Origin: Primulina eburnea
Lineage: Eukaryota > Streptophyta > Magnoliopsida > Lamiales > Gesneriaceae
DNA length: 64,000 nt
Assembly: GCF_022965805.1 (NCBI RefSeq)
Contig: NW_027330944.1
Coordinates: 124,001-188,000 of the forward strand
Direction of reading: 5' to 3'
The notes under the pieces were generated by a model. That model was not told where the DNA came from. It made no database searches and was given only the letters and a program-made list of their open reading frames with translations. Shown here piece by piece: positions 1-59,393 of this stretch. Position 1 is the stretch's first letter. The number at the start of each line of letters is the position of its first letter. The position numbers and the translations under genes were made by a program.

Positions 1-166
1 CAACCCACCCAAATAGTAAAGATCCAGCATCTGAAGTAAGAGAATAAATTAACCAAGCCCATGAGGAAGAAGTCCGACTAGAGAGATACAGTGATGCAGA
101 GGCCGCCTGGAAAGAACCCCTGAAACCACCACATCATCCAGCAGACACAGATATAATAACTGAAGC

Positions 167-200
167 GGCGGGCAAGGAGAACCTGCAGTAAACGCCCGCC
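167..200 (-). other. 3'UTR hairpin of copy A
   Basis: A perfect 7-bp inverted repeat, GGCGGGC / GCCCGCC, closes a 20-nt loop that contains CTGCAG. The same structure sits at the same place in the 3'UTR of D, E, G, H, I, J and K. The RNA strand is the - strand. A role in recognition by the ORF2 protein is inference. Confidence 0.7.
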
Positions 201-329
201 AGGAACTCGAGAAGGACCAAAGAGTAGCACCAACAGGAAAAGTGCTGAAGACCATCCGAAACAAGAAGTAACATATTACAAGATATAGAGGGAGAAATAG
301 AGCCAAAAGGAAGAAGGGTCTGCAAATGG

Positions 330-2572
330 CTAAGAACATCTGTATCTCAGGTAGGGGAGTCCTGAAATATGAGAGCGAGCAAGGGTGGAGATGTGGCTAG
401 GAAGGGAAGGACCTAACTCTAAGGAATACTGCTTAAGGGTTTGAGCCCTCGCCGTCAAAGCATCCGCCACCGAATTACCCTCCCGGAAAATATGAGATAT
501 ATGGAACGTATGCCCCCTCAAGAGAATCAAAATCCAAGAAACAATATGATCCAAACCCCAACAGCACCGACGGGACCGAATTATCTGAATGGAAGTCTGA
601 GAGTCAAGCTCAATCCAAAGAGGGAAAAAAGAAAGATCAGAACAAAGGATAAGACCCCTCCAAACCGCCCAAAGTTCTGCCCGAAGAGAAGACCCAACTC
701 TAATGAACTCACTGAATGAAAGAAGAAGGACCTAACTCTAAGGAATACTGCTTAAGGGTTTGAGCCCTCGCCGCCAAAGCATCCGCCACCGAATTACCCT
801 CTCGGAAAATATGAGATATATGGAACGTATGCCCCCTCAAGAGAATCAAAATCCAAGAAAAAATATGATCCAAACCCCAACAGCACCGACGGGACCGAAT
901 TATCTGAATGGAAGTCTGAGAGTCAAGCTCAATCCAAAGAGGGAAAAAAGAAAGATCAGAACAAAGGATAAGACCCCTCCAAACCGCCCAAAGTTCTGCC
1001 CGGAGAGAAGACCCAGCTCTAATGAACTCACTGAATGAAATAAGAACCCGCTCGGAGTCATCACGCACCAACAGAAGAATCTCCAAGGTAGCCTCTCGAA
1101 CTCCTATCAACATTCAAATTAAAACACCCCGAAGGCGGACGAAGCCAACGTACAATCGCCGTCCTACTAACTCTATGAAAAACAACCGATATACCCAGCA
1201 ATCTCGTCGCATGAGAAACACCCACCCAATGGTGGGCCTTGACAATATGCGCAGCATGGGCGAGGCGCAAGTAAGACAAAATCTGAGACTTCACAGTCTT
1301 GGCAGATATTGTGAACTGACGGTACTTCGAATCATTACGAGCCGTCCATAAAAGCCACATCACAATAAAAGACAGAAACTCCTTCACATGGCCGCCGGGT
1401 GTCCAGCGAGGATTCCTCTTCCAAGCACTGAGAAACAAAGAGAATCCCTAGCGTGGGGAATCCGGACACGGAAAATAGCCCCAAAAAGTGCCGGACGGAT
1501 CGAGCAATGGGGCTATCGAGGAAAATGTGAGTGAATGTCTCCGACATATCACAACACTGGCATCGGGACGCTAACTCAAAGCCACGACACAGGAGTACAT
1601 CATCGGCCGGGAGCCATTGATGCCAAAACCTTCAAAGGAAGAATGACATGGTAGGTATCAACCGGCTACCCCAGCAAGGAGTCAAAATATCAGAAGACTG
1701 GGCTCTCAAGCGGACAAGCTCCCACAAAGATTTCAACGAAAAAGCACCGTCAGGACTGTAAATCCAAAGAGCAACATTAGGCTCACCAGAGGCGATGGGA
1801 ACTAGAGAAATCGCCTCAGCCATCAAAGGGGCAACAACCGAGCAGAGAAGATCAAAATCCCAATCCCCCTAAGAAATAAAATGTGATATACGAGCACTAC
1901 GGCCCCCTCTAATCTCACTCTGGCTCGACGCGGGGGTATCCCCGAACAAAATATCGTGCCAAAATGAAACATTGCCCAGGCCAACCCGCCAGCGGATACC
2001 AGGCTCCGCCCGAGGCCGAATATGAAGGAGGAGACACCAAATAGGTGATATGGAACCAGTAAAGGGTGCACAGATAGGGTGCACCACGCGACAGTGTTTC
2101 TGCATAAAAAATTTGGCCTAGAGGGAAGATCCTTGCCAAAATCGAAACCACAATTTGATGGAGAAGCTTTCCACATGATCTTTCATTCAGCGGAAACCAA
2201 GACCCACCTAAAGAACAGGGAGGCAAGCCCGATACCATCGGGTCCAATGCCATCTCTTTTCCAAGGGTCTAGATCCCCACAGAAAGGCATTAAAAGTATG
2301 CTCAAACTTCTCCATAACTGCTAATGGTGGCTGGAGCACCTGAAACAAATAGATCGGCATCGAGAGGAGCACACTACGGATAAGAGTCATGCGACTCCCC
2401 TGAGAAAGTGTCCTGATCTCCCAACCCTCAAGTCGTCTCCTAACCGACTGTAAGAGGGGCTCAAAAAGAACACACCCAATTACCGCGGAACAAGGGAACT
2501 CCAAGGTACATGAGCGGCAAGTGACCCTCCACAAACCGGGTAATACGCAAAAGCCGAGAGCGGAGACGCGCG
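330..2572 (-). pseudogene. LINE ORF2 remnant (RT C-terminal part, zf-RVT, RNase H), copy A
   Basis: The reading frame is broken into pieces that still align with the C-terminal two thirds of ORF2 in the other copies. About 2208-2534 encodes the region just after the RT palm. About 1823-2176 and 1632-1826 encode the linker. About 1335-1547 encodes the zf-RVT zinc-binding region, and about 330-1140 encodes RNase H, ending in the conserved C-terminal motif GLPYLRYRCS and a TAG at 330-332. The endonuclease and RT catalytic parts are missing because of 5' truncation. Several frameshifts and a 319-bp tandem duplication (not a multiple of three) rule out function. Confidence 0.9.
405..1042. repeat. 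319-bp direct tandem duplication inside ORF2 remnant of copy A
   Basis: Two adjacent, nearly identical copies lie at about 405-723 and 724-1042, offset by 319 bp. They cover the C-terminal RNase H codons of ORF2 and differ by only a few substitutions. No other LINE copy in the window has this duplication. Because 319 is not divisible by three it shifts the frame. The near identity means it arose recently compared with the other lesions in copy A. Confidence 0.9.
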
Positions 2573-2605
2573 GAGGGTTTAGGGTTTAGGGTTTAAGGTT
2601 TTTTT
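2573..2605 (+). repeat. Telomere repeats plus short poly(T), between A and B
   Basis: About three TTTAGGG units, the last altered to TTTAAGG, are followed by 7 T. The T run is the poly(A) tail of copy B on the opposite strand. It is the shortest tail in the window. Confidence 0.85.
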
Positions 2606-3292
2606 ATAATAGAAAATACCGCCGGAAGCAGGGGGTTAGGCAGACCCCTACCTGTATATATCATCAAAACAACAATACAAGATAACACCTTAAGAGAGGA
2701 GGATGAAACCAAACCTCTCTAAAGGCTAGTCATACACAACATAAAAACAAAGACCTAGGGTGGCAAATACACGAGCCAAAAGCTAATCCCTAAGTGAAAT
2801 GCATAATACAAAAGAAAACAAATGAACATCGCTAGATACATGAAAACAAATCGAAACTTATGTAAAGAGTAATGATCCAGCTCAGAAATAGGTGCTAAAG
2901 ACCACCAATGGTACCCATCTCTGAGCTATCTGTCAATGTAAGGCCAAACAGAAAAGAACATCCTAATACGAGATCGATCAGCTGTACAGGATCCCGCAGT
3001 CAAAATAGTAATCAGCTGGAAAATCACTATACAAAAACAGTCGAAGCACCAAAATAAGACCGCAATCCAGCTCAAACCAGAGAATCTCCAAGACCTAAGA
3101 AGAGAGTGACAACGGCCTGAGCTCATAATGTCAGAAATGAAAGCATGAATCGCATGACCGTGACTCGGATAAAAGAGACAACCAAGAGAGAACATCCAGA
3201 GCCACCAAAGCACGCAGAAAAATATATCACAGAGTATTCCCGACATGAATGGAGCCCCGAGTCTGAAGTCAAGCCCGAGACCACCTGGCCCA
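2606..3292 (-). mobile_element. LINE copy B, 3'UTR-only fragment
   Basis: A severely 5'-truncated insertion. It begins with the conserved LINE 3' end (CACCGCCGG-type block, then GGGGGTTAGGCAGACCCCTA on the + strand at about 2620-2653) and extends only into the 3'UTR, matching the J and K 3'UTRs. It contains no coding sequence. Its truncated 5' end passes into TTTAGGG-like repeats near 3292. The last ~30 bases before the repeats do not match J well, so the exact end is uncertain. Confidence 0.85.
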
Positions 3293-3330
3293 AGGGTTTA
3301 GGGTTTGGGGTTTGGGGTTTAGGGGGTTAG
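3293..3330 (+). repeat. Telomere repeats with GGGGTTT variants
   Basis: TTTAGGG and TTTGGGG units. The last five bases, GTTAG (3326-3330), are repeated at 6193-6197 on the far side of the LTR-like insertion and serve as its target-site duplication. Confidence 0.85.
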
Positions 3331-6192
3331 TGTAAGGTCCAAAATTAGACGACGTAATCCAACTGCATGCGAATCTAAGAAATTATGGAAAATGAGTAAT
3401 TAATTTATTTTAATTGCTAATTAATTATGTGACATACATGTTTATTTGCGAAATGAGATTTAATTGTCATCATGCATAAAACTGTATTTTAAGGATTATT
3501 CAAGCGACGATCGAGGAACGGGGACCGAGGGCTGAAGAAAATGTAAATCATAAGTCTTAAAAGCTCCCTACTATATATGAATATTTTTATTAAATAATTA
3601 TTTTTAATTATTTAAAATATGGTCGATGTTTTTTTTAGTATTTTTGAAAATAAGGGGTTTTGAGATGATTTTATACGCCGATATGTAAATTTTATCGGTA
3701 TTGGTTTTTCAACTAAAATGCGAGCTTTTTAGCAACCCGGCTATTAAATTCACATTTTTAATTAAAGAAAACTTTGTTATTATTTTAATTGATCCTAAAT
3801 AGACTAATGAGCCTAATTTAGTGGCTTATTAGGCCTAAAGTCTAGATTAGGGATTAATTACTATTTAAAGTGTAAAAAAGATTTCCAAACCCCACACAAT
3901 TCAAACAAACACACGGCCACCACTTTTCAAATCTGAAAAATCCTCCAACTCTCTCTCCAAATCACGGCTGCACACACAAGGAGATTTGGAGAGGATTTCT
4001 TGTGCAATTTTCGAAAGTTCTAGCAATATCAAGCCACCGCCGCGTCCCGTTCTTCGTCGTCAACGGATATTCGAGCGTAAACTACGCAAAGGCACACCCT
4101 AATCTCCTTTTCTCATCCATCATATCATATTATTGTTTGAATATTTGAATGCATGAAGAACACGGAAATCGTTTTCGATATTTACGGTTTATGGCATGTA
4201 CAAGAGTAAATTCATGTTCCTATGCTGTGAACAAAGAAAACAAAAAAAAAAGAACCGATACTTTGCTGTCAAAGGTGGGTGATCGGGTTCCATGAAAAAA
4301 AAAGGATTTGGCTTGGTCTTGGCTTGGGCCAGGGCTCGGCTAGAGTCTGTTAGGGGTCAGGGAGGAGACCTTGCCAAGCAAGGCTCTACCCGAGAGGCTT
4401 TTCTGCCTTGCGCAGACTTCAGTGTTTGCGCAAGAGGCGTGGGGCTTGGCCTGGGGTTCAAGGGCTGGGTCAGGGTACATCCTAAGAGTCCTAGGCGACT
4501 GTTGGAGGGGTAGGTTAGAGGTTCAAGTCGTGGGCTAGAGTTCTAGACACCAAAACATAGAGTCCGAGTGCATTGAAACTCTCGGCCAGCTTATAGGTGT
4601 ATTGGGGACCTTCGTTTTTGGCCTTAAGTTGGGTTCCTCGATGAAGTTAAGGGTCTAGTATGGTAATTACGATGTTGTGCAAGTTTTGGACCAACATGGT
4701 TCGGGGGTAACTCGATAAAATTAAGAGATGGCTCGGGGTCGAAGTTTAGGTGTCAAATAAGGTTTAAAAATAAAGAAAATTTGGAAAACGGCTCACGGGG
4801 GTCGAGTCATGATCCATAAGGGCTAAAATAATATAAAAAGACTAAATTTAGAATTTAGGAATTTTATATTAAAGTTTGGTATTTTTTCGGGATTAAAACA
4901 CCGTTCAAATAATTAAGAAAAGATAATTGAAAAAGTCTAAGTTTTAAGCCAAATAAAATTATGAAAAATTCACGTAAGCTTAAATAATTATTTGGGACGT
5001 GTTAGAGTAATAAAATCAAGAAAAAAAGTCGAAAACGTAAAATGTCGAGTCTAGGGGTAAAACAGTCTTTTTACACCTAGAAATTTGTAAAGGTCATGGC
5101 AGTGCCCGAATTGCTGTTTTATGTTATTATGATGATTTTGAAATGTTTATGAATTTCTCATGATTAAATTATGATTTTTAAATGTCTAAGGAATTTTCAT
5201 GATTTAAGAAGACATTTAAAATACATGTTGCATGCTTGGTTTCAAAATGAAAATGTTATGTTATGCACGATTTTTGAAGGAAGTGAAGTGATTGTGACTA
5301 GTTCGTTAATAGTGGCGATATCGTGAGGGTGATGGTCCCAGTGGGAGCCCGACGATCGTGTTTCCATTATTACGAACAAGAGGTTAAGAGTTTATGAGGT
5401 TTTGAGGTAAGGATAGGAATGTAGTGAGGGGAAAAGCCCATTGGGAGCCCCGACGATCGTATTTCTATTCGATTCATGTTAGGCCAGGGCCCAGTTGACC
5501 GGTGAGAGTGTTGCTGGTGTGCCCCGCCGCCCAGTACTGTGGTTATATTTCTGATGGATCTATCGTCATGTCATGTCATGTGAGGAAAGTCACAATTAAC
5601 GATCTGAATTCAACAAGGGATAAAGAAAGAGGAAAAATGTTATGATTATGTCAAAAAAGATTTTTGACATGTTGAGGAAAAATGTTAATGTTATGCATAT
5701 CATGAAATGTTATTTTTACTTAAAAGTATTTTTCACCGTTATATGTTGACTGTATTATGTATTACTCGTTATAAAGATTATGGTGTGTTGAGTCTTTAGA
5801 CTCACTAGGTGTTTCTGAGGGAGGTCTTGATGAGTGATACTACTGGACTGATGCCGCACACAACCCGAGGACCAGCGCTACATTTTCCGCATTATGATTT
5901 AAGTTTTACGTTAAAGATTTTAAGACTATTTATTTATGCTTTGAGAGGTTTTTGAGAGTTTAGTATGAGCTATAATTTTCAACCTTTACTGCTTTTTAGG
6001 TTTGGTAAAACGTTTTATGATTTCTGGTTTGACTTTTCCCCTTTCAATTTTCAAATACTAGTTGGATGATTTATTTTAAAATGGTGCAAGATTATTTTAT
6101 GAACATGGGCATGCAATGACCGAAATTATGAGGGTTTTAAAAAAAAAATTTTTACTAGTACTTTTAAAGAAATAAAAGATGAGGACGTTAGA
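3331..6192. mobile_element. Solo-LTR-like insertion (2862 bp) in telomere repeats
   Basis: An AT-rich, non-coding block unlike the LINEs. It starts TGTAAGGTCC and ends GGACGTTAGA. The ends are imperfect inverted repeats, and the expected terminal CA reads GA. It is flanked by GTTAG on both sides (3326-3330 and 6193-6197), a 5-bp duplication as made by LTR-retrotransposon integrases. There is no gag-pol, so it looks like a solo LTR, probably of a Ty3/gypsy element by length and end sequence. Two imperfect repeats of a TGGGAGCCC...GACGATCGT motif lie near 5340-5460. GTTAG also occurs in telomere repeats, so the duplication alone is not proof. Confidence 0.7.
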
Positions 6193-6727
6193 GTTAGGGT
6201 TTAGGGGTTTTGGGGTTGGGGTTTGGGGTTTCGGGATTTAGGGTTTAGGGTTTTTTTTTGGGGTATAGGGGGTTAGGGTTTAGGGTTTCGGGTTAGGGGT
6301 TTCGGGTTTAGGGGTTAGGGTCTAGGGTCTAGGGTTTAGGGTTTTTTTTTTAGAGTTTAGGGTCCAGGGTCTTGGGTCTTGGGTCTGGGGTCTAGGGTCT
6401 GGGGTTTAGGGTTTTAGGGTGTAGGGTTTGGGCTTTAGGGTTTGGGGTTTCGGGTTTAGGGTTTAGGGTTTAGGGTTTCGGGTTTCGGGTTTAGGGTTTA
6501 GGGTTTAGGGGTTCGGGGTTCGGGGTTCGGGTTTAGGGTTTAGGGTTTAGGGTTTAGGGTTTTTTTTTTTTTAGGGTTTAGGGTCTAGGGTCTAGGGTCT
6601 CGGGTCTCGGGTCTCGGGTCTCGGGTCTGGGGTGAGGGTTAGGGTTTAGGGTTTAGGGGTTAGGGGTTAGGGGTTAGGGTTTAGGGTTTAGGGTTTAGGG
6701 TTTTTTTTTTTTTTTTTTTTTTTTTTT
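6193..6727 (+). repeat. Long degenerate telomere-repeat tract with internal T-runs
   Basis: About 510 bp of TTTAGGG and variants. Local clusters are TCTAGGG, TCTCGGG, TTCGGGG, TTTCGGG and GGGGTTA. Three internal T-runs (6251-6259, 6342-6351, 6560-6572) each start right after GGG. The tract ends in 27 T (6701-6727), the tail of copy C. It is the longest telomeric block in the window and one of the two most varied. Confidence 0.95.
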
Positions 6728-7312
6728 CCGGAAAACACCGCCGGATGCGGGGGGGTTAGGCGGACCCCTACCTGTACATATCCACAAAATCAACAGTAAC
6801 AAAATACAGAATACAGAATAAAAAACCTAAAAGAGAAGGTGGAGAAAACCAAAACCTCCTCAAAAAGGCTAAAGCAGTAGAAACATAAAAACAAAGCAAC
6901 CTAGGGAAGGAATTACAAAAGCAAAACGAACCCTAGAAGACTACCAAATAAGCGCCAACAACTAATAAAACACGAGAAGCTCTATGAACCACAAACGAAA
7001 GATGACAAAATGATAACGGCGAGATGATCGCAGAGTCCATGCAAACACGTTCATCCCGGAGCTATCATCCTGTAGAATCCAATCTGGCAATGTAAATATA
7101 ATCTGGTAGCTGACAACTGTACCAAACCCACTAGTCAAAAGAAATTCTGGCCAGGAAATCACTATACAATGGAGATCACTGAGCAAGATATAGATCGCAA
7201 TCCCGCCAGAACACAAGATATCCAGCATCTGAATCAAAAGAACGGAGAGCTCGATCCCATAAAGTAGGAGTCTGACGAACATGGCATGAAAACCAGAGGA
7301 TCCCGGAAGCTA

Positions 7313-7702
7313 TCACCCTGGTAAATCGAATCTGATAACGAGATGAAGCCCACCAGTCAAAAGAAGACCTGGCCTGGAAGTCACTGTACAAAGGCGATCA
7401 AAGAACAAAAAGTAGATCGCAATCCAGCCAGAACAAAAAAGATCCACCATCCAAAGCAAGCGAATAAAGTGATAAAGCCCATGAAGTATAAGTCTGACTA
7501 AAGTCGCAACAATGCAGAGGTTCATCCAGAAAGAACCCCTGAACCACCACAACCTCCAGCAAATACCTATGCAAGAACTGAAGCAGCGGGCAAGGAGAAC
7601 CCCGGACAAACACATCATGTTCCAGTGTCTGGGCCCACTAGCACAGAGCAAATGAGAATGACAAACAAACTCCCAGAGCAATAAACCTGCAATAAAATAC
7701 AT

Positions 7703-7750
<48 letters not shown>

Positions 7751-10700
7751 CCTGAGTAAATGAGCCCTCGCCGCCAAGGCATCCGCCACTGAATTCCCTT
7801 CCCGGTAAATATGCGATAGATGAACTGAACGCCCCCTCATCAGCAAAAGAATCCGTGTAACAATATGCTCAAGACCCCAAGTACACCGGCGGGAGCGAAG
7901 TATAAGAAGAGATATACGAGAGTCAGTCTCAATCCAAAGAGGGAAGAAATGAAGATCAGAAGAAATGAGAAGACCCCTCCAAATAGCCCAAAGTTCTGCC
8001 CGGATATTGGTCCCAACTCCAATGAACTCACTGAAAGAAACCAGCACCTGACCAGAGGAGTCACGAACAACACCACCAACAGTAGAAGCTCCAGGACTAC
8101 CTCTCGAACTCCCATCCACATTCAGTTTGAAGCACCCAACCGGCGGTCTCAACCAACGGACAATCGCCATTTTATGAACCCTGCGCAAATCAACAAAAAA
8201 CCCCAGCGACCTCGCAGCATGCAAAACACCACGCCAGTGCATGGGCTTAACAGTAGACGCAGCGTGAGCAAGACGTAAATAGGACAAAACCTGAGACTTA
8301 ACAGTCTCCCCAGAAATGTGCAAATGACGGTGTTTCGCATCATTCCTAGCTGTCCAGAGAAACCATAAAACAATGAAAGGCAAAAACTCCTTCACGTGGC
8401 CTCTAGGTGTCCACCCCGGATGCCTCTTCCAAGCACTGAGGAAGAGTCTGAAATCACTAGTAAGGGGAATACGGACACGAAAAACAGCCCCAAAAAAATG
8501 CCATACAGATCTGGCAATAGGGCTGTCAATGAAAATGTGCGTGAATGTCTCAGGCATCTCACAGCACTGACATTTAGACGCCAACTCGAAACCACGATGC
8601 TGGAGAACATCGTCAACTGGAAGCCATTGATGCCAAAACCTCCATAGGAAGAAAGACATAGTAGGCCTCAGCCAACTGCCCCAGCAAGGAGTGAATATAT
8701 CAGAAACTTGGTCTCTCAGGCGGACAAGCTCCCAAGCGGATTTCAGCGAAAAAACACCGTCAGAACTATGCACCCAAATGGCCAAATCGGGCTCACCCAA
8801 TGCAATAGGGACCAGAGCAATAGTCTCAGCAACAGAGGGAGGAACAACTGAACAGAGAAAATCAAAATCCCAAACCCCATCTGAAATAAAGTGAGAAACA
8901 CGGACACCCCGATCCCCCCGAACCGGTAACTGACTAGATAATGGAACATCACCACACCAGGTATCATCCCAAAAATTAACATCTCCCATCCCAAGTCTCC
9001 ATCGAATGCCAGATTCAGCACGAGGCCTAATCTTAAGCAAACGACGCCAAGTGGGAGAAATGAACCCAACAGATGAAACACAAGCTGGATGCACCAACTG
9101 GCAGTATTTTCTCATCATGAATTTGGCCCATAGGGATGAACCTTGACGAAAACGAAACCATAATTTAATGGAGAAGCTTTCCACAATATCTTTGAGCCTG
9201 CGAAATCCAGACCCCCTTCAGAGACAGGAAGACATGCACGAGACCACCTCGCCCAATGCCATTTCTTATCCAAGGATCTGGACCCCCACAAGAAACCATT
9301 GAAAACATTCTCGAGCCTCTCCATAACTGCCAGAGGTGGCTGGACTACCTGGAACATGTAAATGGGAACCGAAAGGAGAACACTCCTAAGGAGGGTCATA
9401 CGACTCCCCGGGGAAAGAGTTTTAAGCTCCCAACCCTCCAACTTCTTACTCACCATCTGCACCAGGGGATCAAAAAGAGAGCAAACTCTATTCCCACGAA
9501 ACAAAGGAACTCCAAGGTATTTGATAGGAAAATGACCCTCCCCAAACCCAGTGATGCGAAGGAGACGGGAACGAGTACGACCAGAACACCTCGGAGGCAA
9601 AATAATGACGCTCTTAAATGCATTCACCAACTGCCCCGAGCACTTTTCATAGTGATGCAAAAAATCCATGAGATTGTTCATCTCACGAGTCCCACCAGTG
9701 GCAAAAATAATGATATCATCAGCATAAGCCAGGTGGGAAATAGGGAGATCACAACCAGATCGGTACCTAATCGCAGGAAACTGACGATAAAGACGATCCA
9801 GACCACGCGAAAGGTACTCAGCCCCTAGAATGAAAAGAAGCGGGGACAAAGGGTCGCCCTGCCGGAGACCCCTAGTGGATCCAAAGAATCCGGTGAGTGA
9901 ACCATTGATATTAACTGAAAATTGGCAATGAGAAATGCAGGCAGATATCATCGACACAACCTGCTCTGAAAAGCCATAATGCCTCAAAACATCCAACAGA
10001 AAAGACCATTGGACCCTATCATAGGCTTTGGCCATATCCAATTTCAAAATGACATTGCCACCACGGGTGGGGAGAGAAAGACTATGAGTAAGCTCTTGAG
10101 CAAGGAGGATATTATCCGAAATCACCCTCCCTGGAACAAAGCCACTCTGATTCCACGAAACAAGCCTCTACGCCACCACCTTCAATCGAGCATACAAAAG
10201 TTTTGAAATTATCTTATTGGTCACATTACACAAGCTGATAGGACGAAAGTCCGACCAAGCCTGAGCACCCATGACTTTGGGAATCAAGGTGATCGTGGTG
10301 GCAGTGAACCCCTGTGGCATGGGACTACCCCGAAAGAAATCAAGAACCGCATCCAAAACATCCTGATGGACAATCTCCCAGCAATGCTGAAAGAAGGCCG
10401 AAGAGAAACCATCAGGCCCCGCCACACTATCACGATGTATGGAGAAAACAGTCGCCCGCACCTCCTCCAAAGAAGGGGGGGGCAGCAATATTGGCGTTCT
10501 CCAAATCCGAGATCACCAAGGGGAAGTCAGAAAAATCTGGGCAAGAAAGCACAAAAGGATCCCCAGTAAGCAGGTTTTGAAAAAAGGCGGCCCCAGACTG
10601 CTGAATAAGATCAGGGGAAGTAAGGCAAGAGCCATTATCCCAAATACGGAAAATTTTATTAGCCACCCGTTTTTTCTTGACCATATTGTGGAAGAGTTTG

Positions 10701-11746
10701 GTGTTCCTCTCACCATCCTCTAACCACCTACAAGCGGCTTTTTGCCGCCAAAAATCCGCCTCCATGGCGGTAACTCGAGCAAGATCGGCATTGCAATTGG
10801 ACAAAGAAGTCCAATGCAAATCCGAAGGATCAGCCTCGCAAACTGCCTCAGCAACCCGGACAGCCTGCTCCGCCTCCGCAAGTTTGGCAAAAAGATCACC
10901 AAAAACACCCTTGTTCCACCACTTCAGATGGCTCTTCAGGCGCTTCAATTTCACAAAAAGACGGTGCATGCCATTCAAATGACACGGCAAATTCCAATTA
11001 AGCCGCACCGTCTGCAAAAAACCATGGTGCCTGAGCCACATGCTCTGAAAGCGAAAAGAAGTCGGCCCACTAGCAAAAACCGGGACTGACACAAAAAGAG
11101 GACAATGATCAGAGACTGTACGAATGAGGTGCTCCACACGAATAGAATGAAAATGGTCACCCCAATCAACAGACACAAAAACCCGATCAAGACGCTTCCA
11201 AATGGTCTTGTTCGTCCACGTGAACGAAGACCCCTCAAAACCAGCATCCACTAACCCAGAATCCAAAATAAAATGATTAAATTCTTCCATGGGAAGTAAC
11301 CGCCCACCAGAAGAGCCCAAACACTCAGACGAATTTCTAACTACATTAAAGTCGCCTCCAACAAGCCAAGGACCCTGATCAGGCTTAACCTGAAGCAAAG
11401 AAGTCCAGAGCTGTCTGCGCTCAATGTAGTCACACTTAGCATAAACAAAGGAGCAAAAAACAGTGGTCGGCAAAAAACTAGCAGAAACCCGGAAGTGAAG
11501 GAATTGAGTGTGATCAAGGAGACACTCAACCATCACATCCTCAGCAAAGAAAACCCAGATATGACCCGAGGAGTTCGATATAACTCAAGAAAAACCAAAA
11601 CGACGAGTCATAAACCGAACATCCAGATCAATCATGGGTTCCAAAATAGCCAAGATCTTGACTCTCTTTTCTTTAACATGGGCATGAAGCCTTTGTTGAG
11701 ACTCCGAGCTCCGGAGCCCCCTGACATTCCATATGAGAAAATTCAT
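7313..11746 (-). pseudogene. LINE ORF2 (endonuclease, RT, zf-RVT, RNase H), copy C, broken
   Basis: ORF2 starts at the ATG (11746) that overlaps the ORF1 stop. Endonuclease, RT (YADD near 9730), zf-RVT (near 8590-8670) and RNase H (near 7770-8130) are all recognisable. Lesions compared with copy E: a CGA-to-TGA nonsense change at 11585-11587; one extra G in a G run near 10475-10482; a GAG-to-TAG nonsense change at 10168-10170; a one-base deletion near 9209; and loss of the last ~25 codons and the normal stop by a deletion at the (TA)n tract, so the frame runs through an Ile-Tyr repeat into the 3'UTR and ends at 7313. It is not functional. Confidence 0.93.
7705..7747. repeat. (TA)n microsatellite at deletion point in copy C
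   Basis: About 43 bp of TA dinucleotide. Copies E, G and I have shorter AT tracts at the same 3'UTR position (17948-17968 in E), followed by ~120 bp that is missing in C. The repeat has expanded and marks the deletion that fused the 3'UTR to ORF2. Confidence 0.9.
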
Positions 11747-14121: not shown

Positions 14122-14216
14122 GGCGGCAGAGAGGCGTGAATAGTGACGAATTTAGTGTGTTTTTTCGCACCTTTTAGTGTGTGTTTTTCCAGAGAAAATT
14201 TTTGGGGGCAAAATGG

Positions 14217-14411
14217 TTGGTTGGTTTAGGGTTTGGGGTTTGGGGTTTGGGGTTTAGGGTTTCGGGTTTCGGGTTTGGGGTTTGGGGTTTGGGGTTTAGG
14301 GTTTAGGGTTTTTAGGGGGTTTAGGGGTCTAGGGTCTAGGGTCTAGGGTTTCGGGGGTTTCGGGGTTTAGGGTTTAGGGTTTAGGGTTTTTTTTTTTTTT
14401 TTTTTTTTTTT
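14217..14411 (+). repeat. Telomere repeats plus poly(T), between C and D
   Basis: About 170 bp of TTTAGGG with TTTGGGG, TTTCGGG and TCTAGGG variants, then 25 T (14387-14411), the tail of copy D. Confidence 0.95.
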
Positions 14412-14621
14412 ACCAGAAAATTTTATTTATATACAACAAAAGAGCAGTACAAAGAAAGCCTGATGGGAGGGGGACTAGACCAAGACCTCCACAGCAAAGG
14501 CTACACAAGCATAACATCATAACAAAAGTAACGACATACTACAACAGGGCAACCCAGAATAAAGCAAAACACAGATAAAAACATCGGGCGCCCCGGAATA
14601 CATCAGACAAGCTAATAACAC

Positions 14622-49123: not shown

Positions 49124-49234
49124 GGCGCGTGGTGAGGGCGTGAATAGTGACGATTTAGTGTGTTTTTTTTCGCACCTTTTACTGTGTGTTTTTTGAGAGA
49201 AAATTTTTTGGGGTCAAATGGGTCTGGTTTGGTT

Positions 49235-49322
49235 TAGGGTTTAGGGTTTAGGGTTTAGGGGTTTAGGGTTTAGGGTTTAGGGTTTAGGGTTTAGGGTTTT
49301 TTTTTTTTTTTTTTTTTTTTTT
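49235..49322 (+). repeat. Telomere repeats plus poly(T), between I and J
   Basis: Almost uniform TTTAGGG units (one TTTAGGGG) and 26 T (49297-49322), the tail of copy J. Confidence 0.95.
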
Positions 49323-50041
49323 ATAAAACACCGCCGGAAGCGGGGGGGTTAGGCAGACCCCTACCTGTATATATCATCAAAACAAAGATACAACATAAAA
49401 CCTAACGAGAGGGGGACTATACCAAGACCTCTCGAAAAGCTACTACACAACACACAAAAAACAGAAATCTAGGGTGGCAAGTAAATGAAGCCAAAAGCTA
49501 ATCCCTAGGTAAAGCGCATAAAACATATGAAGATCAAGAAGCAACGCTAAATACATGGAAATAAAACGAAATCTATCTAAGCAGTAGAGATCCGGCTCAG
49601 AAATAGGTGCAAAAGACCACCGATGGTACCCATATCTGAGCCATCTGCCAGTGTAATACCAAACTGAAGAATATAACCTACACCGAGATCGATCTGCTGT
49701 ACCCGATCTGGCAGTCAAAATAGTAAGCAGCTGGAAAGTCACTGTGCAAAAACGGTCGAAACACAAAAGGAGGACCGTAATCCAGCTCAAGTCAGTGAAG
49801 CTCGAAGACCTAAGGAGAGGGAAAAAGCTGACGGAGCACATAAAATCAGAGATCCAAACATGACTGTAGCTCTGAAATAAAAAGCAACCAAAACAGATCA
49901 TCCAGAGCCACCAATGCACGGAACGAGAGTAGAAACTATATAAATCCCGACATGAATGGGGCTCCGGGCCAGAGAAACCACTGAAATAGATCATCCAGAA
50001 CCACCATAAATGTCGACCAGAGAGCATAAAAGTAAGAAAGC

Positions 50042-50076
50042 GGCGGGCAAGGAGAAGCCTGCAGTGAGCGCCTGCC
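50042..50076 (-). other. 3'UTR hairpin of copy J
   Basis: GGCGGGC / GCCTGCC, with one stem position mismatched on the RNA strand (A/C) and one extra loop base. The CTGCAG loop is kept. Confidence 0.6.
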
Positions 50077-50298
50077 GGAAAACAGAAATAATCCAAAGAA
50101 AAGCACCGACGGAGACAGGACTGGGACCCATCCAAATCCAAAAGAACAAACCACGGAAAGTGCAAGTGTCTGGGCCAACTAGCACTGCTCAAATGTGAGA
50201 TAAAGAACAACCTCCAAGGACAAAAGACCTGCAAGAAAAATAAATACATATAGATAGATACAGAAAGAGAGCCAAAAGGAAGAAGGGGCTGCAAATGG

Positions 50299-53200
50299 CT
50301 AAGAATATCTGGATCTGAGGTAAGGGAGCCCTGAACGATCAGAACGGGCAAGGATGGAGATATGGCTGGGTAAGGAAGGACCTAAATCTAAGGTAAACTG
50401 CCTAAGGTTATGAGCCCTAGCCGCCAAAGCATCCGCCACCGAATTACCCTCCCGGTATATATGCGAGATATGAACCATACGCCCCCTCAAGAGAACCAAA
50501 ATCCTCGACACAATGTGATCTAACCCCCAACGACACTGACGAGAGCGGAGGATCTGAATAGAAATCTGAGAATCAACCTCGATCCAAAGAGGGAAAAGAG
50601 AAAGATCAGAACAAAGGATAAGACCCCTCCAGACCGCCCAGAGTTCCGCTCGGATAGTAGACCCAGCTCCAATGAACTCACTGAACGATAGCAAGACCCG
50701 CCCAGAATGATCACGAACGACGCCACCAACCGAGGAATCCCCAGGATTCCCTCTCGAACTCCCATCCACATTCAGCTTAAAACAACCAGACGGCGGCCGA
50801 AGCCAACGAACAATCGCCGTCCGATGATATCTGTAGAAGCAAACTGAAATCCCCAGCGATCGCGCCACCTGGAAATAACCCACCCAATGCTTGGATTTGA
50901 CAGTACGCGCAGAATGGGCGAGGCGCAGGTAAGACAAGATCTGGAACTTCACCGTCTCTCCAGAAATGGAGAGCTGGCGGTGCTTCGCATCATTCCGAGC
51001 CGTCCAGAGAAACCACAAAATAATGAAAGGGAGAAACTCCCTCACATGGCCCCCTGAAGCCCAGACCAGATCCCGCTTCCAGGCACTAAGGAATAACCGG
51101 AAATCCTCGGTGTCAGGGATACGAACCCCAAAGACAGCACCAAAAAAATGCCAAACAGGACGAGCCACCGGGCTGCGAATAAACACATGCGTGAATGTCT
51201 CAGACATATCACAACACTGACAACGAGACGCCAACGCAAAGCCACGGCGCTGAAGCACCTCATCAACTGGGAGCCACTGATGCCAAAATCTCCAAAGAAA
51301 GAATGACATCGTAGGCCTCAACCAGCTACCCCAACAGGGGCGATTAAAACCAGAGATCGGGGCGCGCAAACGGATCAACTCCCAAGCGGACTTGACAGAA
51401 AAATCACCATCGGAGCTATGGATCCATCGAGCCGAATCCAACTCTCCCGAAAGAATCGGGACCATCACAATCTGCTCCGCAAAGGAAGGAGCAACAACTG
51501 AACAAAGAAGGTCAAAATCCCAGGTTCCCTCCGAAAGAAAATGGGAAACCCGGGCACCACGATCCCCACAGACCTCAGTCTGACTGGACAGGGGAACATC
51601 CCTGAACCAACAATCATCCCAAAAAGAAACATCTCCATGGCCAACACGCCAGCGAATACCACTCTCCGCACGAGGCCTGATCTGGAGCAAACGCCGCCAA
51701 GTGGGAGAGATAAAACCACGAGAAGAAACACAAGCTGGGTGCGCCAAGAGACAATATTTCCTCATCAAAAATTTGGCCCAGAGGGAAGATCCCTGCCTGA
51801 ACCGAAACCACAGTTTTATGGAGAAGCTATCCACGAGATCTTTCAATCTCCGGAAGCCAAGACCCCCCTCTTCCACGGGGAGGCAAGCCCGAGACCAGCG
51901 AGCCCAGTGCCATTTCTTCTCCAAGGGCCTGGACCCCCAAAGGAAGGCATTAAAGGCTCTCTCGAGTTTCTCCATGACAGCCAACGGAGGCTGGACAACC
52001 TGAAACAAATATATGGGCATCGAGAGGAGCACGCTACGAATGAGGGTCATGCGGCTCCCCGGTGAAAGAGTACGAATCTCCCAACCCTCCAGCCGCCTCC
52101 TAACAGACTGTAAGAGGGGCTCAAAAAGAGAACACGACCTATTGCCTCGAAATAAGGGAACTCCGAGGTACTTGATCGGCAGATGACCCTCCGCAAAGCC
52201 AGTGATACGCAAAAGTCTAGAGCGAAGGCGCTCAGAGCATCGCGGAGGTAAAATCAGGGAACTCTTGACAGCATTCACCATCTGTCCCGAACAGTTCTCG
52301 TAGTGATGCAGAAAGTCTAAAAGACGCTGCATCCCACGAGACCCACCATTGGCAAAAATAATGATATCATCAGCATATGCCAGGTGGGAAACCAAAAGAT
52401 CACAACTAGAACGGTACCTAATATCAGGATGACGCAAGTAGAGCCGGTCAAGGCCACGCGAAAGATACTCCGCCCCTAAAATGAAGAGAAGGGGAGACAA
52501 TGGATCTCCCTGCCGGAGGCCCCTGGTAGAACCGAAAAACCCCGAGAGAGAACCATTGATATTAACGGAGAAATGACAATGAGAAATACAGGCCGAGACC
52601 AAAGCCACAACCTGCTCAGAGAAACCAAAATGACGCAAAACATCAAAAAGGAAAGGCCATTGGACCCGATCATAGGCCTTAGCCATATCCAACTTCAAAA
52701 TAACATTACCACCACGATTGGGGAGAGTGAGACAATGAGTGAGCTCCTGAGCAAGGAGGATGTTATCAGAAATCATCCGCCCCGGAACAAAACCACTCTG
52801 ATTCAAAGAAATGAGTCTCTCCGCCACAGCCCGCAGACGAGAGTACAACAACTTAGAAATGATTTTGTTCGTGACATTACAGAGGCTGATCGGACGGAAA
52901 TCCGACCAAGCCCGAGCACCCTCGACTTTTGGGATCAAAGTAATCGTGGTGGCTGTAAAGCTCTGAGGCAGAGGAGAGCCTCTGAAAAAATCCAAAACCG
53001 CATCCAACACATCCTGATGAACTATCTCCCAGCAATGCTGGAAAAACGCTGAAGAGAAACCATCAGGGCCTGCCACACTGTCAGGAGAAATGGAGAAAAC
53101 AGTCGCACGCACCTCCTCAAGGGAGGGGGTGGCAGTAATCCCATAATTCTCCTCATCAGAAATCACCGAAGGAAACCCCGAAAAATCGGGACAATCAAGC

Positions 53201-54397
53201 ACAAAGGGATCCCCAGTGAGTAAGTGCTGAAAAAACGAGGCACCCGACTGCTGAATCATATCAGGCGACGTCAGGCAAACCCCATCATCCCATATGCGGA
53301 AAATCTTATTAGCCACACGCTTCTTCTTAACCATGTTATGAAAGAGTTTGGTGTTCCGCTCACCATCCTCAAGCCAGTTGCATGCAGCTTTTTGTTTCCA
53401 AAAATCCGCCTCCATGGCGGTGACACGAGCCAGATCCGCATTCCGATCGGACAGGGCAGTCCAATTCGAATCTGAAGGATCGGCCTCACAAACAAGCTCA
53501 GCAGAACGAACTGCACTCTCAGCCTCGGTGATTTTATCAAAGATGTTACCAAAAACATCCCGATTCCACCACTTGAGGTGATTCTTAAGACGCTTCAACT
53601 TGACAAAAAGACGCGTACATACCGCTCTGACTGCAAGGCAAATACCAATTGAGCCTAACAGTCTGCAAAAAACCATGATGCCGAAGCCACATACGCTGGA
53701 AGCGAAACGAGCTCGGCCCACGGGCGAAAACCGGAGCGGTGACCAAAAGCGGACAGTGGTCAGAAACTGTACGGGGAAGATGTTCAACTCGAATGGAGCT
53801 GAAATGATCTCCCCAATCAACGGAAACCATAACCCTGTCCAACCGCTTCCAAATGGTCTTATTCGTCCAAGTGAACGAAGACCCCTCAAAACCAGCATCA
53901 ATCAAACCAGAATCCATAATGAAAGTGTTGAACTCCTCCATGGGTAGCAACCTACCACCACGGGTGCCCAAACACTCAGACGCATCACGAACAACATTGA
54001 AATCCCCACCAACCAGCCAAGGACCCAGAACAGGCTTGACGTGAAGCAGGGAAGACCAGAGATCACGACGCTCAATATAATCACATCGGGCATAAACAAA
54101 AGAACAAAAAACAGATGTGGGCAAAAAAGGAGCAGAAATCTTAATGTGAAGGAACTGAGCATGATCAAAAACACACTCAGCCTGCACATCAGCAGCAAAA
54201 AACACCCAAATGTGACCAGAAAGATTTGAAATGACCCGAGAAAAACCAAGACGACGAGTCATAAATCTCTGATCTAAATCGATCATCGGCTCCAAAACAG
54301 TCAAAACCTTAATCTGTTTCTCCTTAACAAAAGCATGAAGCCTCTGTTGGGACTCCGAACCCCGGAGTCCCCGGATATTCCAGATTAGGAAATTCAT
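50299..54397 (-). pseudogene. LINE ORF2, copy J, one frameshift
   Basis: 4099 nt, again the 1366-codon length plus one base. The N-terminal 270 codons (53585-54397, MNFLIWNIRG, endonuclease) end out of frame. From about 53615 the next ~1100 codons are continuous to 50299 and carry RT (YADD near 52370), zf-RVT and RNase H, ending GLPYLRSRYS. The frame change is one extra base near 53612-53622, by comparison with copies C and I. Confidence 0.92.
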
Positions 54398-56857
54398 GAT
54401 GAACGGGCAGCAGAAATGCCCGATCGCTTCCTGAGCGACCCAGAGAGATCATCCCTCCCCCTCTTTTTCTTAACATCTGGCATATCTGAATCCAGGATGC
54501 CGTCCTCAGACGCACGACCATCACCTGGTTCAGAATGTCTATCAAAACCCTGGTCAAGATCCTCAACAAGTCTCTCACAGACAACCCTCTCAGCAACAGG
54601 AGAACCCTGCCTATCAACCAACTGAGTGAACAAAGAAGAAGCATCAGCAGGGGACGGAGGGCCAGAAGGTATCGACTGACAACTATGATTCTCCAAACAG
54701 ATCACGGGTTCAGAAAACACCGTGTCAATACCAGCATGCGGAGACCCCAAAACCTCCGCACAATCCACAAAAGGAGTGACATCCTCATCCTCCAAAACTT
54801 TAGCCCCAGACTGGGCTGACACACCACCTAAAGCCAACGGGGAAACAACAACGGTGGGTGAACACAAACCAACAGAACCCATACCCCCGGATGGATCAAG
54901 CTCCAAAGGAGGACCACCGGTGATTATCAACACCCACCTCCCCCAAATGGGGCCCACTCACAGAAGTGGAACCAACTAACACAGTAGAATCAAAAGTCTG
55001 CGCCTCCTGCTGCCAAGGAGAAAGGACATCAAAAGCATTCGAAGTACTTTTCAACAGTGAAGGACCCTGCCCTGTAGGGGGAACAGCAGTAGGTGGAGCA
55101 CGACGCGCAGGCCGTCTCCTTCTACGACGCTTAGGACCAAAAAAAGTCTCAGAATTGGGGTCCTGAGGACCCTGGACATCACCAGGAATGACACCCTCCT
55201 GGGGTGACTGACCCGAAGCAGTCGTCTGAGACGGAGGGACTGGACCAAAAGGCTTAGGCCGGGTCGGCCGAGGGTTCTTGCCATGTGAGTAACAAACACT
55301 CGTCGCATGTCCCAGCATTTTGCAATCAGTGCAATAGGCCGGGATCCTCTCGTACACAACCTCAATCTCTTGGGTGTGATCACCCCAGCCCACCCAAATG
55401 TGCTTAACGGGAGGCTCCAACACATTAATTTCCACACACACACGAGCAAAGGCCCCACGAGACACCTCAGCTGTGTGATCATCAACTTTGATAGGCTTAC
55501 CCAAGAGCTTGGCAATAGCACAAAGGCTTTTTTTCTCATATAAATGCAAGGGTAATTCCGGAAGTCGAGCCCAAACTGGCGCAACTGGAGACTCCGCTTG
55601 AAACTTGAATTCTGGTGTCCATTTAGAAAAACGGATACCAAGTGAGCCAACCATCATACTACCACGCGCCCAAAGCCGTGCGTAATCCTCTTCACAAGAG
55701 AGTGTAATGACCATGAAACCCCGGGGTAAAAATTTCAAATTGAACGGTCTTACCAAACCAACTTTGCCAAAGGCAACAGCTATCATCGAATTGGGGACCA
55801 CAGACCGATTCCCAGAAATTTTACCCACCAGTGCAAATTTAAATGGCTCAATAAGGGATGAAATTACCTTATCCGGGAATAGAATACCCGGCTTGCCATC
55901 CAAAAAAGAAGGCTCAAGAATCTCCTCCATCGAGTTGAGAACATCATCAAAGCTATTCTTCACCGTACGAGGAGACGGGGGAGCCAACAACGTCTTAAAA
56001 GACACATGAGGAGAAACAACTTTCGAACTTACATTGACCGCAGAAGTACCAGGTTTGAACTGCCGAGTTGACCCACTGCCTTGACTAGGAGACCCTACCG
56101 AGTTGACTCGCCCGTACCCACCGGACCACCACCGAGGGCCGGCGACGAAGCGGTGAACATGAAACCGGAGTCGGAACCAGCAGAACCGGGCGGCGGAGGG
56201 GTGAACTCGGTGAACACAGTAGTCGGAAACGGTGAACAAATCGGAATTTGGGCGTTTCCGATTGCCGAACTGACACCAGAAATTGAAGACACCGGAATGT
56301 TGCCCATGACAGGGGGAGTAAACGCCATGGGGAATTGAGAAACGGAGTCGCGACGCCGGAGGAATGGAGCAAAGAAGATGTCGCTATCGGTGAACAGTGA
56401 CTGAAAATCGTAGATCTGAATTGCCGTCGCATACGAACGGCGTTGGGGCTGTAACCAGAGGCGAAATGATCGTCTGGCTGAGGGGATTCAAGATCGGGGT
56501 TCCATTTGCACCGAGGTTGCCGGAGGTGGCCGGAAAATGAAGAAAACCAGTCGGCGCAGAGGTGAACAGTGCCGCCGAGGAAGAAATCAAAGAAGGCGGC
56601 GGCTGTGGTGAATATTCCGGTCGCGCATGGGTACCACTAGAAAGCTGACTAAAAACCGATTCAGGAGAAGTAGCTCCGGTGCCGGGAAGAGCAGCGGCTG
56701 CCGGCGGCGAAGAAGAAAGAAAAACAGGCGAGATTCGATCGGCAAAATCGGGGACGTTGTCGGAGTCCAACGGGTCTGAGATTTTGGTATGTTGGTCGGC
56801 GAGGGGAGGCGGTTCGAATGGGGGTGGTCGCCGGCCGGGATCCGGCGGCGGCGGCAT
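54394..56857 (-). pseudogene. LINE ORF1, copy J, several frameshifts
   Basis: Three to four frame changes: near 54920-54957, near 56090-56100, and between about 56330 and 56430. Each part is recognisable: N-terminal MPPPPDPGRRPPP (ATG at 56857), the DUF4283-type domain and CCHC knuckle (CTDCKMLGHATSVC, near 55285-55330), the basic KRRRRRRPARR segment, and the acidic C-terminus. The stop overlaps the ORF2 ATG (54394-54397). Length is 3n+1. Confidence 0.88.
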
Positions 56858-56952
56858 GGCGGCAGGTGAGGCGTGAATAGTGACGGGATTAGTGTGTTTT
56901 TTCTCACGTTTTACTGTGTGTTTTTTCAGAGAAAATTTTTTGGGGGCAAAAA

Positions 56953-57218
56953 TGGTTTAGGGTTTAGGGTTTTAGGGTTTAGGGTTTAGGGTTAGGGTTT
57001 AGGTTTAGGGTTTAGGGTTAGGTTAAGGGTTTAGGGTTAGGGTTTAGGGTCGGTTTACGGGTTTAGGGTTAGGGTTAGGTTAGGGTTATGGTTTAGGGTT
57101 TGAGGGTTTAGGGGTTAGGGTTTAGGGGTTAGGGTTAGGGTTAGGGGTGTAGGGTTAGGAGTTTAACAGGGTTAGGGGGTTAGGGTTTAGGGTTTAGGGT
57201 TTTTTTTTTTTTTTTTTT
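56953..57218 (+). repeat. Irregular telomere repeats plus poly(T), between J and K
   Basis: About 245 bp of TTTAGGG mixed with TTAGGG, TTTAGG and other one-base-changed units, then 19 T (57200-57218), the tail of copy K. The irregularity is of an indel kind, unlike the substitution variants at 6193-6700, and may partly be sequencing error. Confidence 0.9.
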
Positions 57219-57937
57219 AATAAAACACCGCCGTAAGCGGGGGGGTTAGGCAGACCCCTACCTGTAATATATCATCAAAACAAGATACAACATAAAACCT
57301 AACGAGAGGGGGACTATACCAAGACCTCTCGAAAAGCTACTACACAACACACAAAAACAAAATCTAGGGTGGCAAGTAAATGAGCCAAAAGCTAATCCCT
57401 AGGTAAAGCGCATAAATACATATGAAGATCAAGAAAGCAACGCTAAATACATGGAAATAAAACGAAATCTATCTAAGCAGTAGAGATCCGGCTCAGAAAT
57501 AGGTGCAAAAGACCACCGATGGTACCCATATCTGAGCCATCTGCCAGTGTAATACCAAACTGAAGAATATAACCTACACCGAGATCGATCTGCTGTACCC
57601 GATCTGGCAGTCAAAATAGTAAGCAGCTGGAAAGTCACTGTGCAAAAACGGTCGAAACACAAAAGGAGGACCATAATCCAGCTCAAGTCAGTAAAGCTCG
57701 AAGACCTAAGGAGAGGGAGATAGCTGACGGAGCACATAAAATCAGAAATCCAAACATGACTGTAGCTCTGAAATAAAAGCAACCAAACCATATCATCCAG
57801 AGCCACCAATGCACGGAACGAGAGTAGAAACTATATAAATCCCGACATGAATGAGGCTCCGGGCCAGAGAAACCACTGAAATAGAATCATCCAGAACCAC
57901 CATAAATGTCGACCAGAGAGCATAAAAGTAAGAGAGC

Positions 57938-57972
57938 GGCGGGCAAGGAGAAGCCTGCAGTGAGCGCCTGCC
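57938..57972 (-). other. 3'UTR hairpin of copy K
   Basis: Identical to the copy J hairpin (GGCGGGC / GCCTGCC, CTGCAG loop). Confidence 0.6.
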
Positions 57973-58193
57973 GGAAAACAGAAATAATCCAAAGGAAACA
58001 CCGACGGAGACAAAACGGTGACCCATCCAAAACCAAAGGAAACAAACACGGAAAGTGCAAGTGTCTGGCCCAACTTGCACTGCTCAAATGTGAGAGAAAA
58101 AACAACCTCCAAGGACAAAAAACCTGCAAGAAAAATAAATACATATATATAGATACAGAAAGAGATCCAAAAGGACGAAGGGGCTGCAAATGG

Positions 58194-59393
58194 CTAAGAA
58201 TATCTGGATCTGAGGTAAGGGAGTCCTGAACGATCAGAACGGGCAAGGATGGAGATGTGGCTGGGTAAGGAAGGACCTAACATCTAAGGTAAACTGCTAA
58301 GGTCATTGGCCCTAGCCGCCAAAGCATCCGCCACCGAATTACCCTCCGGTATATATGCGAGATATGAACCATACGCCCCCTCAAGAGAACCAAAATCCTC
58401 GACACAATGTGATCTAACCCCCAACGACATGACGAGAGCGGAGGATCTGAATAGAAATCTGTGAATCAACCTCGATCCAAAGAGGGAAAAGAGAAAGATC
58501 AGAACAAAGGATAAGACCCCTCCAGACCGCCCAGAGTTCCGCTCGGATAGTAGACCCAGCTCCAATGAACTCACTGAACGATAGCAAGACCCGCCCAGAA
58601 TGATCACGAACGACGCCACCAACCGAGGAATCCCCAGGATTCCCTCTCGAACTCCCATCCACATTCAGCTTAAAACAACCAGACGGCGGCCGAAGCCAAC
58701 GAACAATCGCCGTCCGATGATATCTGTAGTAAGCAAACTAAAATCCCCAGCGATCGCGCCACCTGGAAAAAACCCACCCAATGCTTGGGTTTGACAGTAC
58801 GCGCAGAATGGGCGAGGCGCAGGTATGACAAGATCTGGAACTTCACCGTCTCTCCAGAAATGGAAAGCTGGCGGTGCTTCGCATCATTCCGAGCAGTCCA
58901 GAGAAACCACAAAATAATGAAAGGGAGAAACTCCCTCACATGGCCCCCTGGAGCCCAGACCAGATCCCTCTTCCACGCACTAAGGAATAACCTGAAATCC
59001 TCAGTGTCAGGGATACGAACCCCAAAGACAGCGCCAAAAAATGCCAAACATGGCGAGCCCACCGGGCTGCGAACAAACAACATGTGTGAATGTCTCAGAC
59101 ATATCACAACACTGACAAGAGACGCTAACGCAAAGCCACGGCGCTGAAGCACCTCATCAACTGGGAGCCACTGATGCCAAAATCTCCAAATAAAGAATGA
59201 CATCGTAGGCCTCAACCAACTACCCCAACAGGGCCGATTAATATCAGAGATCGGGGCGCGCAAACGGATCAACTCCCAAGCGGACTTGACTGAAAAAGCA
59301 CCATCGGAGCTATGGATCCAACGAGCCGAATCCACCTCTCCCGAAAGAATCGGGACCAACATAATCTGCTCCGCAATAGAAGGAGCCACAACT
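58194..59393 (-). pseudogene. LINE ORF2 fragment (zf-RVT, RNase H), copy K
   Basis: The C-terminal ~400 codons of ORF2, ending with a TAG at 58194-58196 like copy J. The RNase H motif VDGSSRG (near 58660) and the zf-RVT region (near 59080-59200) are present but several one-base indels break the frame. The RT and endonuclease are missing because of the junction at 59394. Confidence 0.88.

Follow-up and report, generated by a model that had tools for sequence, protein, structure and literature searches.

The window analysed here is a stretch of 64,000 nucleotides (C414:124001-188000) on contig C414 of the Primulina eburnea assembly (812,487,562 bases in 1,224 contigs), and it carries copies of a long interspersed nuclear element (LINE) alternating with short tracts of the telomeric repeat TTTAGGG. 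As the original prediction had stated for its eleven LINE copies or fragments, all 11 pieces (A to K1, from left to right) share one orientation, lying on the minus strand of positions 1-59393. In the window TTTAGGG occurs 91 times on the plus strand and CCCTAAA 7 times, and runs of at least two units number 23 for the former and none for the latter. Telomeric DNA amounts to only 1,284 bp, distributed over 11 tracts of 23-507 bp in which many units are degenerate. The poly(A) tails had been described as joined to telomeric repeats on the proximal side and the 5' ends as meeting them on the distal side, and both descriptions hold: the tails adjoin the repeat at all ten visible 3' ends (B-K1), and the repeat follows all ten visible 5' ends (A-J) directly or after a short filler, K1 being without such a junction. 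At eight of these 3' ends the junction is exactly TTTAGGG followed by T19-34, and the other two read GTTAGGG|T18 (F) and TTTAAGG|T7 (B). Seven of the ten 5' junctions take the form GGTTTAGGG, several of them preceded by a few filler bases, and restart at one and the same position of the telomeric unit. Seven pieces (C, D, E, G, H, I, and J) reach the 5' end of the family or come close to it, three others (A, B, and F) are truncated, and an inversion junction cuts K1 short. The pattern is broken by two later insertions, namely a solo-long terminal repeat (LTR)-like sequence in G and a non-LINE sequence at 3331-6186.

Along the window, in which the pieces A to K1 are all on the minus strand and the telomeric tracts on the plus strand, the 5'-truncated LINE A (1-2576) has its 3' end outside the window, from C414:123518 on, with the junction TTTAGGG|T8; a stretch of 319 bp is present in it twice in tandem at 98% identity (406-1046). 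A tract of 23 bp (2577-2599) leads to LINE B, a 5'-truncated 3' fragment (2600-3292), and the following tract (3293-3330) ends in GTTAG, which recurs at 6187-6191 as the 5-bp duplication around the non-LINE insert (3331-6186, no strand assigned). This insert of 2.9 kb lies inside the telomeric tract, has no similarity to the LINE, is AT-rich, and gives weak matches at the left tip of C6, at C1:26009-26164, and at C414:121084-121206. The degenerate tract beyond it (507 bp, 6194-6700) contains three runs of T9-T13 that may be poly(A)-only insertions, a reading supported by stubs at the base of the left array of C1, where just the final few dozen LINE bases plus poly(A) are found. Then come the full-length LINE C with a broken second open reading frame (ORF2; 6701-14222), a tract of 164 bp (14223-14386), element D (14387-17054), a tract of 65 bp (17055-17119), LINE E of the same subfamily as C and a few bases short at its 5' end (17120-24568), a tract of 62 bp (24569-24630), and LINE F, a 3' fragment (24680-25326) that has lost part of its 3' end and is preceded by T18 at 24631-24648. 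After a tract of 23 bp (25327-25349), the full-length LINE G (25350-34227) is interrupted at 31853-33264 by the solo-LTR-like insert (TGTAGT...ACTACA, with CAGAG duplicated), for which H has the empty site. The remaining full-length copies are H (34257-41691; ORF1 open, ORF2 with one premature stop), I (41753-49230; ORF2 frameshifted), and J (49297-56953; a third subfamily, ORF2 frameshifted), with tracts of 29 bp between G and H (34228-34256), 61 bp between H and I (41692-41752), 66 bp between I and J (49231-49296), and 246 bp between J and K1 (56954-57199). LINE K1 is a 3' part (57200-59393) that ends at the inversion junction, and beyond it the inverted LINE K2 (59394-64000, plus strand) begins with its 5' end and runs on to contig base 190591.

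Full copies are about 7.5 kb long and encode an ORF1 protein with a DUF4283 domain and an ORF2 protein with an apurinic/apyrimidinic (AP)-type endonuclease, a reverse transcriptase (RT), a zf-RVT domain, and RNase H. A zinc-knuckle in ORF1 is weak and below the curated cut-off in C, D, and E and is not listed for I (three of four scanned). Among solved structures, the RT is nearest to LINE-1 ORF2p (1.5e-40, vs 1.8e-18 for R2) in a comparison list without an R1-clade RT, and the predicted endonuclease fold is nearest to the LINE-1 enzyme, the TRAS1 enzyme coming at rank 31. The endonuclease motifs are intact in all six copies tested. By these features, the element is an L1-type LINE of the plant type with an AP-type endonuclease, and its plant L1 domain make-up and L1-like endonuclease fold speak against membership in the R1 clade, a comparison made with no R1 RT as reference. 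According to the list of open reading frames, none of the window's six full copies has its ORF2 in one piece, and a database ORF2 protein of P. eburnea with 1502 residues, from a cluster of 26 members, is 97% identical to that of I. The possibility that the window is the locus of an annotated protein was rejected: the protein P0031 equals C exactly over 458 residues and is only 95.5% identical elsewhere, and no locus was assigned. Element D had been counted among the copies or fragments and is not a mere fragment, since it retains ORF1 and is complete at either end, with a poly(A) tail, and has no ORF2. It is 2.7 kb long, its single frame (14669-17071) is open for more than 800 codons, and it shares its 5' terminus with the other copies and has a 3' terminus of its own. 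In this it recalls HeT-A or other gag-only elements.

The arrangement is not confined to this contig. Many chromosome ends of P. eburnea are stacks of one kind of LINE, mostly co-oriented and separated by short telomere-repeat spacers. Exact (TTTAGGG)4 was found 343 + 325 times genome-wide, and the reversed control was found 0 times. Among the matches listed, all 70 on the chromosome-sized scaffolds C1 (28) and C2 (42) are no more than 18 kb or 64 kb away from an end, in telomere-like polarity (CCCTAAA on the left, TTTAGGG on the right), and 30 on C3 are no more than 100 kb away from one, 20 of these being in its first 7.7 kb and in the wrong direction. In the end sequences examined (40 kb for each end of C1, 20 and 48 kb for those of C2), LINE/telomere arrays form all four ends until a few bases before the assembly stops, and the LINE 3' ends point toward the centromere, the exception being the outermost 2-3 kb of the left end of C2, which are not in the expected orientation. 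We also surveyed the last 1.5 kb of all 36 ends of the scaffolds C1-C18 (29.6-65.8 Mb each), together with a second sample of 1.5 kb about 8 kb further inward at 14 of the 15 other ends. LINE sequence was present in the last 1.5 kb of 21 ends, and C12 right showed telomeric repeat only; a match at the right tip of C4 was discarded as an AT repeat. The inner samples added C10 left and C16 right, giving 23 LINE-bearing ends of 36 within 9.5 kb, with the expected orientation at 18 of them, the opposite one at 4, and both at 1. These results bear out the suggestion that a LINE lineage lives in plant chromosome ends. Telomeric repeats lie between the LINEs and also at some tips (C7 left and C12 right), indicating that telomerase-type repeats persist.

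Contig C414 itself is likely the base of such a chromosome-end array, since no LINE copy was found to the left of the window within C414:100001-123533 and the array begins at 123,518 with a single TTTAGGG followed by the 3' end of LINE A. Its distal part is less regular. LINE orientation flips from position 59394 onward, and inverted LINE-LINE joins are located at contig bases 183393/183394 (5'-5'), about 190578 (3'-3'), and about 198223 (5'-5'), with no telomeric tract found at these joins or in the 12 kb beyond the window. Twin priming of one element was considered for K1 and K2, as an inverted 5' part and a CT microhomology fit this idea within the window; however, K2 reaches base 7359 of the 7630 bases of the reference copy, so that it overlaps K1 and the two cannot come from a single copy. 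Chromosome-end fusions, fold-backs, inversion, or assembly faults are possible origins of these joins. A more general misjoining of telomeric and LINE reads during assembly might be suspected from the length of C414, which is exactly 200,000 bp, as if cut, and from the inverted distal junctions and the C2 and C3 tips, which could be faults. Nevertheless, misjoining would not yield tens of distinct junctions on several contigs in one register and polarity, and we give an artefactual origin of the array practically no credence.

A second concern is growth by recombination, in which one LINE-telomere unit would have been block-copied by unequal exchange or break-induced replication, its orientation and flanks being inherited with it. 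Such copying does occur in this genome and provides a control: at C2:47965066-47988736, within the array of the right end, a block duplication with a period of 13.4 kb comprises stretches of 6.3 and 2.7 kb that are 99.5 and 98.2% identical, and it retains the fillers and the order of repeat variants while the lengths of telomeric tracts and poly(T) are altered. The bodies of G, H, and I are 96-97% identical to one another, but their 5' fillers and tract variants differ. Measured against the C2 control, this makes the three copies look like separate insertions, and tandem duplication was rejected as the source of G-H-I. Identity among the copies is mosaic, a further feature that agrees with recombination: across the first 5 kb, G and H agree at about 98-100%; among G, H, and I identity is near 100% in the middle of ORF2, and it is 83-94% over most of the last kilobase of G against H and 48-82% in the first kilobase of H against I. 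This mosaic suggests exchange between copies or between their sources. As an account of the whole array, block copying is also opposed by the different truncation points of A, B, and F, by the presence of deep subfamilies and of D within one array, and by arrays on many chromosome ends, and it appears to us very improbable. Likewise, the arrays on many ends and the differing fillers of G, H, and I do not agree with a single interstitial site copied as a block, the outcome that had been named as contradicting a telomeric lineage.

The junctions outside the window follow the same rule. At the C1 and C2 ends, the 3' motif occurs 12 times, each time with poly(A) and telomeric repeat after it, and clean telomeric repeat lies upstream of four of the five detected 5' ends, the fifth being degenerate. 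A predominance of copies outside telomeric repeats had been proposed as contrary evidence; in this sample, which consists of chromosome ends only, the 12 further 3' ends all lie in telomeric repeat. When T runs of at least 14 bases in the window and at the C1 and C2 ends were collected from both strands (n=35), 31 were found to come after an exact TTTAGGG and 33 after GGG. One tail at C2:47996654-47996738 is a poly(T) of 85 bases after TTTCGG, much longer than the others (17-35). Because the leading TTT of the next unit merges into the poly(T) tail, we infer that the insertion point on the G-rich strand is at T|A. TTT|A is near the usual preference of L1 endonucleases, and one might therefore think of an ordinary plant L1 that inserts at T-rich/A sites genome-wide without targeting, is lost elsewhere, and is retained at gene-poor ends whose TTT/A suits its endonuclease. 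On the other hand, GGG precedes 33 of the 35 long T runs at the studied ends, about 68 kb of subterminal DNA directly proximal of three arrays contains no LINE copy (a small control), and loss elsewhere would not make the telomeric junction the sole kind. We accordingly regard an untargeted element as improbable.

It seems probable to us that the window represents a chromosome-end array built by an L1-type LINE lineage whose target-primed insertion is directed at telomeric repeats. Polyadenylated LINE RNA would arrive at a TTTAGGG tract, where the AP-type endonuclease would nick the G-rich strand at TTT|A; the resulting ...GGGTTT-3' end could then pair with the poly(A) and prime reverse transcription, and the 5' end of the new copy would be joined to the distal telomeric repeat, often with a few extra bases. 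As the G-strand would always prime, the 3' end of each copy would point toward the centromere, and repeated rounds of insertion, joined at times by block duplication and by exchange between copies, could produce head-to-tail LINE stacks at many ends. The main rival is priming at the chromosome end in the manner of HeT-A/TART, by which the G-strand overhang would prime on the poly(A) with its free 3' end (...GGGTTT), each event would lengthen the chromosome, and telomerase would afterwards re-add TTTAGGG, mostly starting GGTTTAGGG. The polarity and the TTTAGGG|T register fit this mechanism equally well, the tracts between copies are short (23-246 bp save the one of 507 bp), as if little repeat had been added, and the restart position common to seven of the window 5' junctions is in keeping with it. 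So is a distal rise in the canonicality of the tracts (Spearman 0.69, 10 tracts, p 0.03), in which a layering from older proximal to younger distal copies is weakly seen and is not claimed. However, end-priming would not need an endonuclease, the motifs of which are intact, the fixed distal register also fits second-strand cleavage, and degenerate units flanked by canonical ones in the long tracts agree with insertion into repeat that was already older. In our view, nick-primed insertion into telomeric tracts is the most likely mechanism, and priming at the free end is possible but rather unlikely.

Several observations weigh against insertion at a targeted nick in chromosome-end repeats. A free 3' end would give a junction identical to that made by a nick, and since both yield the same polarity and register, sequence alone cannot decide between them. 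Moreover, distal C414 contains the inverted junctions, the LINE orientation is opposite at the left ends of C2, C3, C8, and C9 and mixed at the right end of C17, no LINE was detected in the samples of 13 of the 36 ends, and D inserts although it is without the conserved 3' terminus described below. With regard to the ends, the left tip of C10 and the inner sample of C12 right consist of N only, and scaffold tips may be misplaced or incomplete, so that the exceptions and the empty ends are not firmly biological.

The 60 bases before the poly(A) tail (34284-34343, minus strand, in H) are 85-98% identical between subfamilies, and the 640 bases preceding them are 30-54% identical with gaps counted as differences. 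The motif CAGGTAGGGGTCTGCCTAACCCCCCCGC within these 60 bases is present with at most two differences at eight of the ten visible 3' ends, those of D and F being the ones without it. Within the LINE 3' terminus, CCTAACCCCCC is similar to the C-rich telomeric strand, and this telomere-like sequence might help in the recognition of the RNA or of the target. A 3' RNA hairpin was considered and rejected, as the termini of H, J, and E (3/3) fold no better than shuffled sequences (z 0.50 to 1.00); compensatory changes were found in no pair, and Rfam gave no match. In view of this lack of support from folding, we claim only sequence conservation for the last 60 bases.

Three subfamilies are represented in the window (C/E, G/H/I, and J/K). 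In ORF2, E and H show a synonymous divergence (dS) of 1.5 and H and J one of 0.9, with ratios of nonsynonymous to synonymous divergence (dN/dS) of 0.10 and 0.16, respectively, and the ORF1 of D is more distant (dS 1.1-1.35, which is near saturation; dN/dS 0.51-0.65). A tree built from 54 RT cores places the three subfamilies in separate well-supported Primulina clades; P. huaijiensis and P. tabacum are also represented in the C/E clade, and a single P. huaijiensis sequence falls in the J clade. Several old lineages under purifying selection thus occupy one habitat. Considering that the three deep subfamilies and the ORF1-only element D share both site and junction, the telomeric habit looks old. 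Evidence from P. tabacum is indirect: NCBI gene numbers tend to follow genomic position, and when its 25 LINE loci are ordered by gene number, 10 of the 24 gaps are at most 7 (random mean 0.08, highest 3), suggesting that these loci are clustered. In addition, the LINE ORF2 proteins of the monocots Zingiber and Curcuma are closer to the Gesneriaceae clade than are their counterparts from the other sampled Lamiales (Sesamum, Paulownia, and Erythranthe).

Insects, fungi, an alga, and a few further groups are already known to harbour telomere-directed LINEs. In HeT-A and TART of Drosophila the 3' end points toward the centromere, and HeT-A stands beside TART in the fly much as the ORF1-only D stands beside full copies. 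The likeness of polarity to HeT-A/TART drawn in the original prediction is correct, as HeT-A, TART, and TAHRE form head-to-tail arrays at chromosome ends with 3' ends centromere-ward (18 of the 23 LINE ends in Primulina); by its junction, though, the nearest analogue is SART. Drosophila, according to PMC7265360, is without telomeric repeats and telomerase, unlike Primulina, in which TTTAGGG tracts lie between copies and at some tips. The same paper (PMC7265360) describes SART of the silkworm as inserting at the T|A step of the G-rich telomeric strand and as having ORF1, an ORF2 with AP-type endonuclease and RT, poly(A), and telomerase-type repeats alongside, in all of which it resembles the Primulina LINE. 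The two differ in that SART, like TRAS, belongs to the R1 clade and to the silkworm, whereas the Primulina element is L1-type, has RNase H, and resides in a flowering plant with TTTAGGG. MoTeR and FoTeR are fungal elements of another clade with a restriction-like endonuclease, in contrast to the AP-type enzyme of the Primulina LINE. With MoTeR of Magnaporthe and FoTeR of Fusarium, the Primulina system nevertheless shares LINE-type elements in telomeres, interstitial tracts, variant repeats, and truncated copies, and functional FoTeR copies are under purifying selection, according to PMC7367193 and PMC12857005 (the last point from PMC12857005). Ordinary plant L1 elements have the same domains (DUF4283 in ORF1; endonuclease, RT, zf-RVT, and RNase H in ORF2) but not the fixed telomeric junction and the chromosome-end arrays. 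Zepp of Chlorella, whose copies are nested into each other's tails, also accumulates in telomere regions within the green lineage, and differs from the Primulina LINE, whose copies are spaced by TTTAGGG tracts and whose host is a land plant. Zepp is the case of a telomeric LINE in Viridiplantae that is named in PMC10088271. By analogy, the Primulina element would function like SART and its array resembles those of MoTeR or HeT-A, yet it is a plant L1.

For flowering plants and land plants, no telomere-targeted LINE was found to be reported in the open-licence literature, and a case may exist in subscription papers; a review of plant telomeres speaks of a long systematic search that left land plants without a telomerase-independent exception (PMC6356271). 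A plant L1 lineage with this habit provides an independent example in which to study how telomere targeting arises in a LINE and whether the host gains or is harmed, and also a case for how telomerase and retrotransposition divide one chromosome end. It carries a warning as well, in that long-read plant assemblies may end within LINE arrays and thus appear to be telomere-less. As a tentative and still doubtful extension, the ends of chromosomes in Primulina, and perhaps in other Gesneriaceae, might be kept jointly by telomerase repeats and G-strand-primed LINE addition, with a share in telomere length like that of HeT-A or SART, through an L1 lineage that arose independently of those of insects and fungi and that has the ORF1-only element D as a partner.

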